From assembly GCA_021845615.1 (NCBI GenBank), contig JAJZVP010000010.1:1-34373 (forward strand): 34,373 bases of DNA. Direction: 5' to 3'. This DNA comes from a bacterium (GTDB taxonomy: Bacteria > Vulcanimicrobiota > Vulcanimicrobiia > Vulcanimicrobiales > Vulcanimicrobiaceae). This document shows, piece by piece, positions 4,451 to 14,000 of the stretch. The notes under the pieces were generated by a model. It did not search any database and had not been told where the DNA came from. It saw only the letters and a list, made by a program, of their open reading frames with translations. How positions within the stretch are numbered: position 1 is the first letter of the stretch; each line of letters opens with the position of its first letter. The position numbers were made by a program, and so were the translations under genes.

Positions 4451-4526
4451 GGGGGCATAGCTCAGTTGGTAGAGCATCACGCTGGCAGCGTGAGGGTCAG
4501 GAGTTCGAGTCTCCTTGCCTCCACCA
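4451..4526 (+). tRNA. tRNA-Ala (GGC), CCA encoded; integration target
   Basis: GGGGGCA/TGCCTCC acceptor stem, anticodon loop CTGGCAG, 3' ACCA. Confidence 0.97.
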
Positions 4527-4538
4527 AGAAACGCCCGA
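4504..4538 (+). repeat. Left attachment repeat (attL), 35 bp
   Basis: TTCGAGTCTCCTTGCCTCCACCAAGAAACGCCCGA, identical to 13944-13978. Confidence 0.95.
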
Positions 4539-4560
4539 CATTCAGGGCGTTTTTCTTTTC
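4531..4560 (+). terminator. Terminator of tRNA-Ala(GGC), inferred to be supplied by the element
   Basis: ACGCCC-gacattca-GGGCGT followed by TTTTCTTTT. Confidence 0.85.
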
Positions 4561-4682: not shown

Positions 4683-4877
4683 GTGAAACAGCCGCCCCCG
4701 CCCAATCCGTTCGTCGAGTTATTCCGCACGCTCGTCAACAATCGCGCGCCGGAACTCGTTCAATTTGTCGAAGAGCAGACCGAGAGAGAGCAAGCAATAC
4801 GCCATCGTGGCGCGACATTAAGGCAAGAAGTTGAGCGAGCGGCAATTGCCTCCGGCGACCGACGTCGCACTGAATGA
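4683..4877 (+). CDS. Small hypothetical protein (64 aa), cargo
   Basis: GTG-start ORF rich in Glu/Arg, overlapping the next ORF by 47 nt. Confidence 0.5.
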   Translation: MKQPPPPNPFVELFRTLVNNRAPELVQFVEEQTEREQAIRHRGATLRQEVERAAIASGDRRRTE

Positions 4878-5700
4878 TTACCTTTACCTAGACCGAGACC
4901 GCATCGCTGCGTATCATACGCAGCTACGTGGCTCGGGAACCCCTCTCCAGTCAAAGTTCACGCAGAGCTTTAAAGAATCGTCCGAGAAATCCGGCGAAGC
5001 GAGCGCGCACTTCATCAAGGGCGGTATTCGGGGGGAGGTAGAGTCGACCGATGGGACGGAGCGAACGTTCGATCAATCATGGCCGATGATAATGGCCACG
5101 ATCGCTGAATTGTACGATCGTGGATGGGTTCGCAAGACCGCACTCGGTGTTCCGGTCGGAAGTTTGATCGAGCAAACGGGTTTGCTTCAAGTCGTCGACT
5201 TACGTGTGATGCGTGAGCTGTGGTCGCCCATAACTAAGTTGCTTGCACGAGGACAGCAGAGCAAAGCAAAGATTCCGACCAGGTCAGTGCTTTCCAACAT
5301 GGCGGAGTTCGCCAAGTACATACCGCATCCAATGGTGGCCCAGATGATTACCAATCCTGAGGATAAGCCTTTTGAGTTTGGGGAGTCGTCGTTGGTCGGA
5401 TGGGGACTTCTTGACACCAAAAACATTCTCGGAAATGCTGATGCTTTTGCGTTGATGAACGGTGGCCTGTTTGGCGGGCTCTACTCGATGATCGCGGTGC
5501 TCGACATCGGAGCCAATTCGGAGGCAGCACCATTCGTCGACCCCTTCGAAAATTGGGAAGTCAACAACTCATTTGAAATGATGCTTGGAATGCAACAGTA
5601 CATTCGCAGCATTTTCGGTCGCCCCAATTACGCTAACGGAGTAACGCCGCTGGCTATCTATCGGGCGCTGCCCCATGACGTAGGCGATGGTGAACCCTAG
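4831..5700 (+). CDS. Cargo protein of unknown function (289 aa), possibly DUF6414-like
   Basis: TTG start; N-terminal LNDYLYLDRDRIAAYHTQL; family assignment is from memory and tentative. Confidence 0.75.
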   Translation: MSERQLPPATDVALNDYLYLDRDRIAAYHTQLRGSGTPLQSKFTQSFKESSEKSGEASAHFIKGGIRGEVESTDGTERTFDQSWPMIMATIAELYDRGWVRKTALGVPVGSLIEQTGLLQVVDLRVMRELWSPITKLLARGQQSKAKIPTRSVLSNMAEFAKYIPHPMVAQMITNPEDKPFEFGESSLVGWGLLDTKNILGNADAFALMNGGLFGGLYSMIAVLDIGANSEAAPFVDPFENWEVNNSFEMMLGMQQYIRSIFGRPNYANGVTPLAIYRALPHDVGDGEP

Positions 5701-5718: not shown

Positions 5719-6903
5719 TTAGCCGCCGGCAGCGATCCGTTCCATCCGTGCGCCGAGGCGGTCCGTCGCATCGTGCTTCACGTCATCGAAGGCGTGGGAG
5801 TAGATGCTCAGGGTGATCGTCGCGGATTCGTGGCCGAGGACGCCCGCGACGGTTACGGCGTCGCTGCCGTTGGCGATGAGATGCGACGCCGCGGTATGCC
5901 GCGTGTCGTGGAGCCGCTGCGTCGAGATGCCCGCAACGCGCGCGATCCGCCCGAACGCCTTCGTTGCCGCCATCGGCGTTACACGCTCGCCAAGCTCGTT
6001 CGTGAACACGGCACCCGAATCGACGTAAAGACCAACCGGAGCGCGCAGCCGTTCCTCTGCCTGCATCACCCGCTGCCGATGTAAGGCGTCGAGCGCCCAG
6101 GCCGACAGGCCGATTACGCGCTCGCGATGAGTCTTCGTGTCTTTCAGTTCGATTCGGCCCTTCGTCTGCGACAGCGATCGCCGGATGCGAACCTTGCGCG
6201 CATCTACCTGCACGTCTTCCCATGAAAGGCCGCACAATTCACCGCGCCGTGCGCCGGTAGCCAGTGCCAAGATGATGAAGGAGCGCCAGCGCGTCGGTTC
6301 CGCCGCCGCAAGCAGGCTACGAACCTCATCGTCGTTCAATGCAGTTCCGGCGTATCCCGAAGTCGTCGGTCTCGACGGTTTCGCCGCCTTCACGTCGCAG
6401 ACGTTGCGCCCGATATATTCGAGCCCGATGGCAAGCGAAAGCGCCGCGTGGAGCAGCCCGTAGACGTTATGAACAGTCTTCGGGGACAGGGGCTTCTTCC
6501 GCCGTCCTATCGTCGCCGCAAGCTCGTTTCTCCAGGCTGCGATGGTCGCAGGTTGGAGCTTCGAGAGCACGATGGACCCTAGCTTCGGCTCGATGTAGCG
6601 CTTCGATTTTAGCGTGTACGTCTCGATCGTCGCCGCCGTGTGGTGCTCGGGGTCGGATTTGCAGTAATCGAGGTATTCCGCCATCATCTGCCCGATGGTC
6701 AGAGATTTGGTAGCGACGTTGTGGCCCTTATCGCGCGCGGTTAACGCCTCGCGCTCTGCTTGCTCCGCCTCGTCGCGCGTCCCGTAAGTGCCGATGGTCT
6801 TCCGGGCGCGCTTCCCGCCTTCGCCTTGAATGTCGACAACGACGGTGTAGCGATGCTTCCCATTCTTGCGTGCTCGGACGCTCTTTCGCTTGTAGATGCT
6901 CAC
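5719..6903 (-). CDS. Tyrosine recombinase / site-specific integrase
   Basis: ATGARRGELCGLSW (Arg), LHDTRHTAAS (HxxR), LGHESATIT, IYSHAF (Tyr); N-terminal arm-binding-like domain. Confidence 0.96.
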   Translation of the reverse strand: MSIYKRKSVRARKNGKHRYTVVVDIQGEGGKRARKTIGTYGTRDEAEQAEREALTARDKGHNVATKSLTIGQMMAEYLDYCKSDPEHHTAATIETYTLKSKRYIEPKLGSIVLSKLQPATIAAWRNELAATIGRRKKPLSPKTVHNVYGLLHAALSLAIGLEYIGRNVCDVKAAKPSRPTTSGYAGTALNDDEVRSLLAAAEPTRWRSFIILALATGARRGELCGLSWEDVQVDARKVRIRRSLSQTKGRIELKDTKTHRERVIGLSAWALDALHRQRVMQAEERLRAPVGLYVDSGAVFTNELGERVTPMAATKAFGRIARVAGISTQRLHDTRHTAASHLIANGSDAVTVAGVLGHESATITLSIYSHAFDDVKHDATDRLGARMERIAAGG

Positions 6904-10906: not shown

Positions 10907-10937
10907 GGCGCTTAGCGCCTCTCAGTGTGCTACACTG
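10907..10937. promoter_or_regulatory. Divergent control region with two palindromes
   Basis: GGCGCTTAGCGCC (10907-10919) and CAGTGTGCTACACTG (10923-10937) between divergent genes. Confidence 0.6.
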
Positions 10938-11872
10938 ATTCTCAGGCAGGGGGCTCAATCACGTCAAACCCATCTCCTGGCGAGATCTGCGGCGTCCTGA
11001 TTGAGGTCGATCACTTGAAAGTCACGCTGACATCGGAGCAGATAAAAACGTTTCGCGCATTTCTTTCAGCAAGTCTCGTGCGCTACGGAATGGATGCTGC
11101 AGACATAGCGGATCACGTTTGCAGAATCGAGCCGAGCGGCAAAGAGCGCGAGGCTCTCAAGCATTTTAAGATGGGCTCTATGCGATGCCCATGCAAGGAA
11201 CTTAAGCTTGGCGGCGTGCAACGAGCGCGTCGGAAAAAAATGCGCGAAGCCGTTCAAAACGCACTCAACGAAAAGCGCCCCTTGTCGCACGCGAGAGCAT
11301 ACGCGCTCTATTTGCTTCTAATTAACTCAACGAAAGCCGTCGCATGGCGGCGGGCGCATCCAAAAGAGCGCGACCAAGCGTTAGAGCTTATGCACTCGCA
11401 ACAGCATTGGCCCTTTAGCATCCCACCTGACCTTGCCGATCGGACGCCACCGCAGCAATATCCCGCGGTTGCGCTCACGCCTCATGGCGTCGTCGCGTTA
11501 GCGGATGCGCTCACGGAGGCGCTACGAGAACAAAAGCTAATCCGACGCGCGAAAGATGATACCCGCGCCTGCATTATCGCGACGCTGCGCGAGATGCACG
11601 ACGAGTGCAACGACGCGCTCGTAGCACGCTTGAGGCTTGCCAGCGGCTTTCGCCCCATCCATGTTACAGAAGAGGAGGTGCCAATTGAATCTGAGATCGT
11701 GCGGCGCCAAGGTTTTACATCGTTCACTCGAAGAACGACTGTCGTTAGGGATTGGAAGGTACCCCCGCCCGACGGTGCGAGGGAGCCCGACCGTTGGGAG
11801 TATCTACAAGCTATGCTATGGGATCAATGGTGCTTGTTTGAGAGTCTCGCGAGCGACACCACGCATACCTGA
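10925..11872 (+). CDS. Hypothetical protein (up to 315 aa)
   Basis: Long ORF divergent from the HTH gene; listed GTG start lies inside a palindrome, so the true start is probably downstream. Confidence 0.65.
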   Translation: MCYTDSQAGGSITSNPSPGEICGVLIEVDHLKVTLTSEQIKTFRAFLSASLVRYGMDAADIADHVCRIEPSGKEREALKHFKMGSMRCPCKELKLGGVQRARRKKMREAVQNALNEKRPLSHARAYALYLLLINSTKAVAWRRAHPKERDQALELMHSQQHWPFSIPPDLADRTPPQQYPAVALTPHGVVALADALTEALREQKLIRRAKDDTRACIIATLREMHDECNDALVARLRLASGFRPIHVTEEEVPIESEIVRRQGFTSFTRRTTVVRDWKVPPPDGAREPDRWEYLQAMLWDQWCLFESLASDTTHT

Positions 11873-11947: not shown

Positions 11948-13252
11948 TCATTGGTCGTAGCCTGGCGGCATGATGCCGGGGACTGTACGCAAGGCGGGAA
12001 TCGGCGCGCCCCATCCGCAAGCCCAGGAAGTTTCGGAGCGATACACTGCGTTAACAAGTTCAAACTTACCTCTGAGTTGACCGCAGGCCCGGGAAAGAAT
12101 GAATCGCGGTAGGTGTTCGGCTGCGCTTCCCCGTGTATCCGAGGCGCAAACCTTCGCCGCATTAGCCTCCATCGACCAGTTGATGATTTCGTCGCCAAGG
12201 GTCGGAGTGCGCCTATTCGGCGCGATCATGACGGCGAGGAGATTCGCCATGGCGCTGCATCCAGGCGTTTGAGATGCGGGACTGTCGTTGAACGCTCGAA
12301 CGTCAGCCGAAAGTGCTGCCGTTATTGGAATTGGCGTTGCGGAATATCGGCGAGCGAGCAGTGCCTTCTGGCGCGCTATCTTCGCGTCGAGACGTGCTTG
12401 TTTCGCCTTCTGCGCTGCCGACTGTTGGTCGACTCCGACGATCACCATCTTTCCATTGGGGCACGTTACATAATCCTTAACACCGAGCTTCGCGTCGGTC
12501 GCGCGGGTATGCGCCATGGTGGCGATGTTTTGGGGATCAGGGGTGACATCGTTGCACGGAACGTCCGCGACATAAGCGAGCAACGCCCGATAAGCCGAGG
12601 GGTCGGTCTTCGACAGGGCGGAAAGATTCGGAAGCCCCCAGGTCTTTTTTGCAACCACAGGCGTGGTGCACGAAGAGCCGGCCTTGCAAAGCGCGCCCGG
12701 CGATGCAGAGATCGCGCTGATGCTCTCGTTGTGAGCCTGGGTACTCGCAGTGCAGCCGTCTTCCGGTGCGCCGTGCCGACATTCCTTCGAGACAAGATCA
12801 AAGGAGCCGCCGTTGTTCCCACAGCCTTGGTACGAACCTTTGAGCTGCCCGTCTCCTATGTATGATGTAACGTTGTAATCGCATCCCACCTCAAGCGACG
12901 AGTGAAGGACGAATGTCGCATGCCCGTCGGAAGCTTGCACGAAGTTGACGATCGTTCCGCGGTTGCTCATATTGCAGCAAAACGAGGCGAAAAACGTGCC
13001 TCCATCCGATGAGAAGCGGATCGTAATCGATCCACGACCGCCGCGTCCGTCGTCGATTTCTCCCGACCAAGAGTGATTGCTGATCGAAACAGCGCCCGGC
13101 GTCGGTGTCGCCGGTGTTGGCGTCGCATAAGTCGTCCCGGAGGGCTGCGCGCCCGCTCGACCGACAAGGGACAGAGTGAAGATCGCCACCGCAATGGGGA
13201 GCGCCGCGACTGTTCTCAGCGGTAGGGGCGACTTATCAAGCCAGCCAATCAT
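11948..13252 (-). CDS. Secreted Cys-containing protein of unknown function
   Basis: MIGWLDKSPLPLRTVAALPIAVAIFTLSLVGRAGAQ signal peptide, TPTPATPTPG linker, many Cys; ATGA overlap with the upstream gene. Confidence 0.75.
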   Translation of the reverse strand: MIGWLDKSPLPLRTVAALPIAVAIFTLSLVGRAGAQPSGTTYATPTPATPTPGAVSISNHSWSGEIDDGRGGRGSITIRFSSDGGTFFASFCCNMSNRGTIVNFVQASDGHATFVLHSSLEVGCDYNVTSYIGDGQLKGSYQGCGNNGGSFDLVSKECRHGAPEDGCTASTQAHNESISAISASPGALCKAGSSCTTPVVAKKTWGLPNLSALSKTDPSAYRALLAYVADVPCNDVTPDPQNIATMAHTRATDAKLGVKDYVTCPNGKMVIVGVDQQSAAQKAKQARLDAKIARQKALLARRYSATPIPITAALSADVRAFNDSPASQTPGCSAMANLLAVMIAPNRRTPTLGDEIINWSMEANAAKVCASDTRGSAAEHLPRFILSRACGQLRGKFELVNAVYRSETSWACGWGAPIPALRTVPGIMPPGYDQ

Positions 13253-13725
13253 CGGATTTCCGCGTATGATGAGCATTGCTTGTAAACATTACGGCCAAAT
13301 TGATCGGGCGACGTGTTCACTGGCGCACTCTCCGCGAGGCTTAGACCGTTTATTTCCTCTAGGCTAGCGCCGCTGTCGTTCTCAATCTTGTTCGTTAATG
13401 CAGCAAAGCGCGACTGGCTCCTTCTCTCAAGGTCCAGAAATGTTGCGGCATTGACGGCCATCATCTCGCACGATGTCAACTGATCGCCGACCGAGAAGCA
13501 TCGAATGGCGTAACTCAAATTGCCCACCTTTCCAATGAATCCGTCCCCATGCATCTTCATCATCCGGCAAGCTTGGACTCGGCTAAGGTCAGATTGTTCC
13601 ATCTTAGCTAGCGTAGCCGCCGTACTCACGCTGTCTGCTAAAGCGACATGGTTCAAAATACTAAGGAACAGGATCAGTCCCACCGCTATCAGCACCACGA
13701 TGGCACGCACGATACCAGTCTGCAT
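13249..13725 (-). CDS. Exported or membrane-anchored small protein of unknown function
   Basis: N-terminal hydrophobic segment MQTGIVRAIVVLIAVGLILFLSILNHVALA, then four conserved-looking Cys. Confidence 0.7.
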   Translation of the reverse strand: MQTGIVRAIVVLIAVGLILFLSILNHVALADSVSTAATLAKMEQSDLSRVQACRMMKMHGDGFIGKVGNLSYAIRCFSVGDQLTSCEMMAVNAATFLDLERRSQSRFAALTNKIENDSGASLEEINGLSLAESAPVNTSPDQFGRNVYKQCSSYAEIR

Positions 13726-13943: not shown

Positions 13944-13978
13944 TTCGAGTCTCCTTGCCTCCACCAAGAAACGCCCGA
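13944..13978 (+). repeat. Right attachment repeat (attR), 35 bp
   Basis: Identical to 4504-4538; displaced 3' end of tRNA-Ala. Confidence 0.95.
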
Positions 13979-14000
13979 TTTCACGGGCGTTTTTCTTTTC
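13971..14000 (+). terminator. Displaced original terminator of tRNA-Ala(GGC)
   Basis: ACGCCCGATTTCACGGGCGTTTTTCTTTTC. Confidence 0.7.

Follow-up and report, generated by a model that had tools for sequence, protein, structure and literature searches.

An overlapping gene pair encoding a divergent DUF6414-like protein at the end of a tRNA-Ala island: a candidate accessory anti-phage cassette

What does a pair of overlapping open reading frames (ORFs), located between the left attachment site and the integrase of a mobile island, contribute to that island? The question is raised by a 34,373-nucleotide (nt) stretch of a bacterium of the family Vulcanimicrobiaceae (assembly GCA_021845615.1, contig JAJZVP010000010.1, positions 1 to 34,373 of the forward strand), hereafter called the window, for which an initial annotation made from the letters alone had proposed a two-gene cargo cassette of the defence or toxin type. 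Based on comparisons with relatives in phages and prophages, the pair is here interpreted as probably an accessory anti-phage cassette of the temperate-phage kind, carried at the attachment-site (att) end of the island.

Re-examination of the pair confirmed the coordinates of a 64-amino-acid (aa) ORF overlapping a 289-aa ORF by 47 nt, convergent with the integrase gene. The shared segment spans 4831-4877, the large ORF lies in the +1 frame, and 18 nt separate the pair from the integrase gene. One detail of the initial annotation required correction: the large protein does not start with LNDYLYLDRDRIAAYHTQL, as its N-terminus is MSERQLPPATDVA and the motif begins at residue 14. The features of the pair are as follows.

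4683 to 4877, plus strand: small ORF, proposed coupled partner (64 aa, GTG start, TGA stop)
4820 to 4823, plus strand: possible Shine-Dalgarno sequence AAGG of the large ORF, located within the small ORF and 7 nt ahead of the TTG at 4831
4831 to 5700, plus strand: large ORF, divergent DUF6414 / phrog_9699 protein (289 aa, TTG start)
4939 to 5076, plus strand: flexible insert, codons 37-82 of the large ORF, flanked by two short strands that pair with each other; of low confidence in both AlphaFold2 models

Profile matches place the large protein as a probable, divergent member of DUF6414, and the similarity that had been put forward tentatively is real. It matched PF19952 (DUF6414) with E = 2.6e-4 and 21.3 bits against a gathering cut-off of 25 bits; its relatives score 23.9-45.5 bits, and 36 of the 37 aligned family proteins match PF19952 at E ≤ 0.01, some across nearly the whole profile. 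The match to phrog_9699 is full-length (7e-28, residues 12-280 to positions 9-268 of the 270 in the profile), and all 18 columns invariant in the family are kept, among the invariant positions being D16, Y19, D21, Q31, E77, D123, W191, D225, R264 and R278 (numbering of the window protein). In two AlphaFold2 runs, with a predicted local distance difference test (pLDDT) of 69 and 76 and a predicted template modelling (TM) score (pTM) of 0.66 and 0.69, an alpha/beta fold was predicted, with the flexible insert between the two paired strands in both models. An amphipathic beta pattern over residues 37-78 was clearly above shuffled sequences in only a few of the 37 members, the window protein among them (p 0.02), and the idea of a pore-forming hairpin was left as speculation. 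Subunits with OB folds and MCM recurred as weak Foldseek matches (E 0.01-0.3 and worse, TM score about 0.2), which were not used as evidence. No counterpart was found in a PDB sequence search, and a literature search found no paper on DUF6414 in the library covered.

The overlapping arrangement recurs throughout the relatives. Each of the 64 loci inspected has a small ORF in the frame one base behind that of the large gene, and its stop always falls at one and the same point, within the [YFN]D codons of the large gene. This small ORF encodes 55-72 aa in the relatives, and the start of the large gene lies inside it in every relative inspected. Overlap lengths are 38-50 nt among the phages, the window having 47 nt. 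In nearly all relatives, AGAGGA or GAGGAG stands about 8-10 nt before the large start. All features of the phrog_9699 two-gene layout (size, overlap, +1 frame and stop at [YFN]D) are found in the window. The small-ORF stop requires that the codon before Asp end in T (NNT), and 34 of 34 distinct genes have such a codon. In the rest of these genes the T-ending share of the codons concerned is only 30-84%, giving a joint chance of about 10^-6.7 if shared ancestry is ignored. When the small ORF alone was used as a query, 40 loci were recovered, and a large family gene follows in each one inspected after de-duplication. In their non-overlapping part, the small ORFs of the phages show purifying selection, with pooled proportions of synonymous (pS) and nonsynonymous (pN) differences of 0.49 and 0.18 and nonsynonymous to synonymous rate ratios (dN/dS) of 0.06-0.46 for single pairs, and therefore encode a protein; the conserved tail of this protein within the overlap is not separable from constraint on the large frame. 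Distances between small proteins correlate with those between large proteins (r 0.67), the corresponding value for repressor and large protein being 0.30. These comparisons show a conserved two-gene unit whose large gene begins within the small one, preceded there by a site resembling a ribosome-binding site. The phage small ORFs match phrog_15141 and phrog_29688. Separately, positions 133-182 of phrog_3735, a 182-aa phage family, match a small ORF (locus L006, 1.5e-8), which suggests that DUF6414 genes may also be preceded by longer proteins that share this tail.

The small ORF of the window fits this unit by its layout. Codon statistics built from the window's own genes placed its frame best of six (7.6 bits; the five others negative), and an equally good score is reached by 12.6% of chance ORFs in the window, so that its coding signal is modest. 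The tail G[AS]RxT[KN]HR[FI] of the phage small proteins is absent from the window ORF, which ends in IASGDRRRTE, and likewise from the small ORF of Nitratiruptor phage NrS-3, which shows the same layout with an equally dissimilar small protein. Against a hidden Markov model (HMM) of the phage small ORFs the window ORF scored 1.3 bits, whereas most of the left-out phage small ORFs tested reached 41-50 bits and the most divergent 17. Sequence homology between them was rejected on this score. The expected conservation of the small ORF thus holds for the overlapping frame kept in relatives but not for the 64-aa sequence: the window ORF is equivalent to the phage small ORFs by position, frame, stop, size and a possible AAGG site, not by sequence.

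Full-length relatives of the large protein were found only in phages, prophages and the island of the window. By tblastn, such relatives were recovered from Bordetella avium phages (3e-20), Acinetobacter phage qsb1 and Moraxella phages. Scanning viral contigs for a motif gave 63 loci, and the searches found no fewer than 36 distinct relatives in prophages or phages. The pair is present in at least 15 of 5,426 complete E. coli genomes and in 16 of 50,697 phage records, together with one plasmid-collection record of chromosome size. In 149 genomes of the window's phylum, no further copy was found besides one near-identical island in a second metagenome-assembled genome (MAG). The one canonical DUF6414 member found in the phylum is a stand-alone gene in another genus of the family (G121; L078, 6961-7857), downstream of ATP synthase genes and with no obvious overlapping small gene. 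Broken or truncated large genes stand beside an intact small ORF in L008 (5974-6809), L009 (3995-4513) and L057 (6013-6492), which indicates that loss of the large gene is tolerated.

The neighbourhood survey that had been proposed for the 289-aa homologues located them at accessory positions of prophages and revealed no housekeeping-only context. Among the upstream neighbours at 35 loci, HTH_3 was identified in 17 and Peptidase_S24 in 12, and about half of the units directly follow a CI-like repressor. In E. coli prophages, a repressor lies on one side of the pair and kil-gam-bet-exo on the other, which is the location that rexAB occupies in lambda. The cI-N interval has been described as a prophage hotspot holding rexAB and bstA, and the cI promoter as among the most active in lysogeny (PMC8585504). 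In two of these prophages (L073 in strain TUM9868 and L074 in 13TMH22), the flanks are 98.6% and 97.2% identical and the pair alleles have no mutual blastn match; at L095 and L059, pair alleles without a blastn match likewise lie between flanks of 97-99% identity. The pair has therefore been replaced as a unit, and these loci show the two genes swapping and diversifying together as one allele. The same slot was sampled in eight other E. coli genomes (L131-L138), from repressor WP_001295669.1 (XRE/S24) or a relative to kil WP_000233576.1. Six of the eight occupants are of defence or defence-candidate types (five by PADLOC scan, one by the same annotation), namely a SIR2 protein (PDC-S25, ThsA-like), a PD-T4-6/mad6-like kinase, PDC-M11A/B and three HipA-kinase/DUF3037 units (PDC-M66A/B, M03-like; two scanned, one by annotation). 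The occupants of L133 and L138 gave no convincing PADLOC match and may be new systems. In E. coli prophages, then, the pair sits in a mobile slot common to defence genes. This shared slot and the allele swapping support the defence part of the original proposal, and a defence role is inferred for the pair from its genomic company.

The carrier of the pair in the window is a 9.4-kb tRNA-Ala island flanked by direct repeats, delimited by the following features.

4504 to 4560, no strand: attL, the 3' part of tRNA-Ala(ggc) and its downstream terminator (57-bp direct repeat with attR, 94.8%)
5719 to 6903, minus strand: tyrosine integrase, convergent with the pair (PF00589, 1.3e-28)
13944 to 14000, no strand: attR (57-bp direct repeat with attL)

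The attL repeat begins inside the tRNA-Ala(ggc) gene (4451-4526), and its proposed position is real, as relatives hold a single uninterrupted copy of the 57-bp repeat: in the congeneric genomes G001, G002, G004 and G005, the empty site consists of the left flank, a single att and the right flank, without the 9.4-kb insert. A mobile cargo character of the two genes, with a large protein resembling DUF6414, is supported. By Pfam, the island encodes an integrase, a resolvase, a CHC2/AAA+ (primase/AAA+) replication module and an HTH_17 protein; the ORFs at 10925-11872 (315 aa), 11948-13276 (442 aa) and 13249-13725 (158 aa) have no Pfam match. The island has been called a satellite, and an integrase together with a replication module at an att site is what a phage satellite would carry; on the other hand, no capsid-hijack, helper-phage hijack or packaging gene and no relaxase was recognised in the island, several ORFs of which have no Pfam family. 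The island may plausibly be a phage satellite. The same island in the second genome bin (G008; JAJYRI010000078.1, L003 152-9534) differs at 2 positions in 9,383 nt, whereas its right chromosomal flank is just 90.9% identical to that of the window and closest to another species, G002. A near-identical island beside a flank that differs by 9% suggests that the island was recently transferred from one species to another within the genus, or else that a contig was mis-binned, the estimated contamination of G008 being 7%. Just outside attR, the G008 bin holds a PIN-domain gene (PF01850, 1.7e-10; L003 9590-9904), and the right flank of the window after 14087 is without it.

A possible mode of action can be outlined for the anti-phage cassette. 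Translation of the small protein, which is helical and charged, would expose the start of the large gene, and such coupled synthesis could supply the two proteins in a fixed ratio. The small and large proteins probably form a complex. The DUF6414 protein would serve as sensor or effector, acting on infection by another phage, and the small protein may either restrain or deliver it. In the predicted models, the flexible hairpin insert of residues 37-82 would be the best candidate for the active part. Whether the pair represents an undescribed anti-phage family is an evenly balanced matter in our judgement; such a family would combine a DUF6414 protein whose fold is not recognised with a small, coupled partner whose gene spans the start of the large one. 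Its alleles would diversify and replace one another at a single locus, and it would occur in temperate phages of the Beta- and Gammaproteobacteria and the Campylobacterota as well as in an island of an unrelated phylum.

Several observations weigh against an anti-phage cassette. The small ORF of the window scores no better than shuffled copies against the phage HMM; the structure prediction suggested for the large protein yielded the alpha/beta model, for which three Foldseek runs (PDB, viral models) gave no significant match and no functional analogue; PADLOC and NCBIfam hold no model for the family and matched neither window protein; and in Moraxella and Acinetobacter phages the unit is located among tail genes, away from the repressor. 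The position inside tail operons, the lack of an assigned function for DUF6414 and the chromosomal neighbourhood of the G121 gene beside ATP synthase genes would all suit a prophage gene with a non-defence role in lysogeny, regulation or host physiology. Since the E. coli prophage slot is otherwise filled mostly with defence-type cassettes, we regard such a role as improbable, slightly more so than a toxin-antitoxin system. In the latter, the small first gene would encode an antitoxin, and the coupled large gene a growth-inhibiting toxin stabilising the island or prophage. The small-first order, the overlap and the coupling do resemble many toxin-antitoxin operons, the island carries the unit at its att end, and one E. 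coli copy adjoins hokD; however, no toxin fold or catalytic motif was found in the large protein with Pfam, PHROGs, PDB or Foldseek, and the exchange of divergent alleles at a single locus is a pattern that characterises defence specificity more than addiction. We therefore consider this system unlikely, although a toxin-antitoxin pair acting by abortive infection would merge with the anti-phage cassette.

The remaining alternatives concern the small ORF itself. It could be a mere leader or a chance ORF in the window, with the large gene working alone, as the missing HMM similarity and the codon usage equalled by chance ORFs would allow; its stop, frame and overlap, however, are placed as in all relatives, and the equally dissimilar small ORF of Nitratiruptor shows the same layout, so that this explanation is given a low probability, comparable to that of the toxin-antitoxin system. 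A single fused protein, produced when ribosomes shift by +1 from the small frame into the large one, would account for the constant +1 relation and the short overlap. Nevertheless, nearly all members have a start codon and a Shine-Dalgarno-like AGAGGA or GAGGAG whose position hardly varies, no common slippery site was noticed, and the large frame of several members is closed just before the start codon; fusion was rejected because of the conserved start and Shine-Dalgarno sequence, and its probability is very small.

If the anti-phage interpretation is correct, a widespread family annotated just as DUF6414 becomes a defence system, and the defence repertoire extends to a poorly studied phylum by way of an island that recently crossed species. 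The E. coli prophages offer two divergent alleles in near-identical backgrounds, ready for experiment. A further question is how the gene pair keeps its overlap across such divergence.

Among known families, the proteins of this family match PF19952, with the window protein taken alone under the cut-off (21.3 versus 25 bits). In PHROGs, the large protein falls within phrog_9699, to which no function or pairing is assigned, and the window small ORF matches neither phrog_15141 nor phrog_29688. Among defence systems, a comparison can be made with Dodola, whose DolA protein is annotated as DUF6414. A canonical DUF6414 protein of the same phylum weakly matches the PADLOC DolA model over the N-terminus (E 0.05), whereas the window protein and the relatives tested gave no match to that model at E ≤ 10. 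The partner of the present family is a protein of 55-72 aa, in contrast to the ClpB-like ATPase DolB, which is the partner of DolA (PMC11514479). No such gene adjoins the window pair, the neighbours of which are the tRNA/att site and the integrase gene. Since no family member tested matches DolA and a ClpB-like partner is lacking, assignment to Dodola was rejected and the pair is not filed there. With respect to lambda rexAB and BstA, no sequence relation was found, and gene order and sizes are unlike; the pair nonetheless resembles both in occupying the prophage slot behind the repressor, from which it is presumably expressed in the lysogen (PMC8585504).
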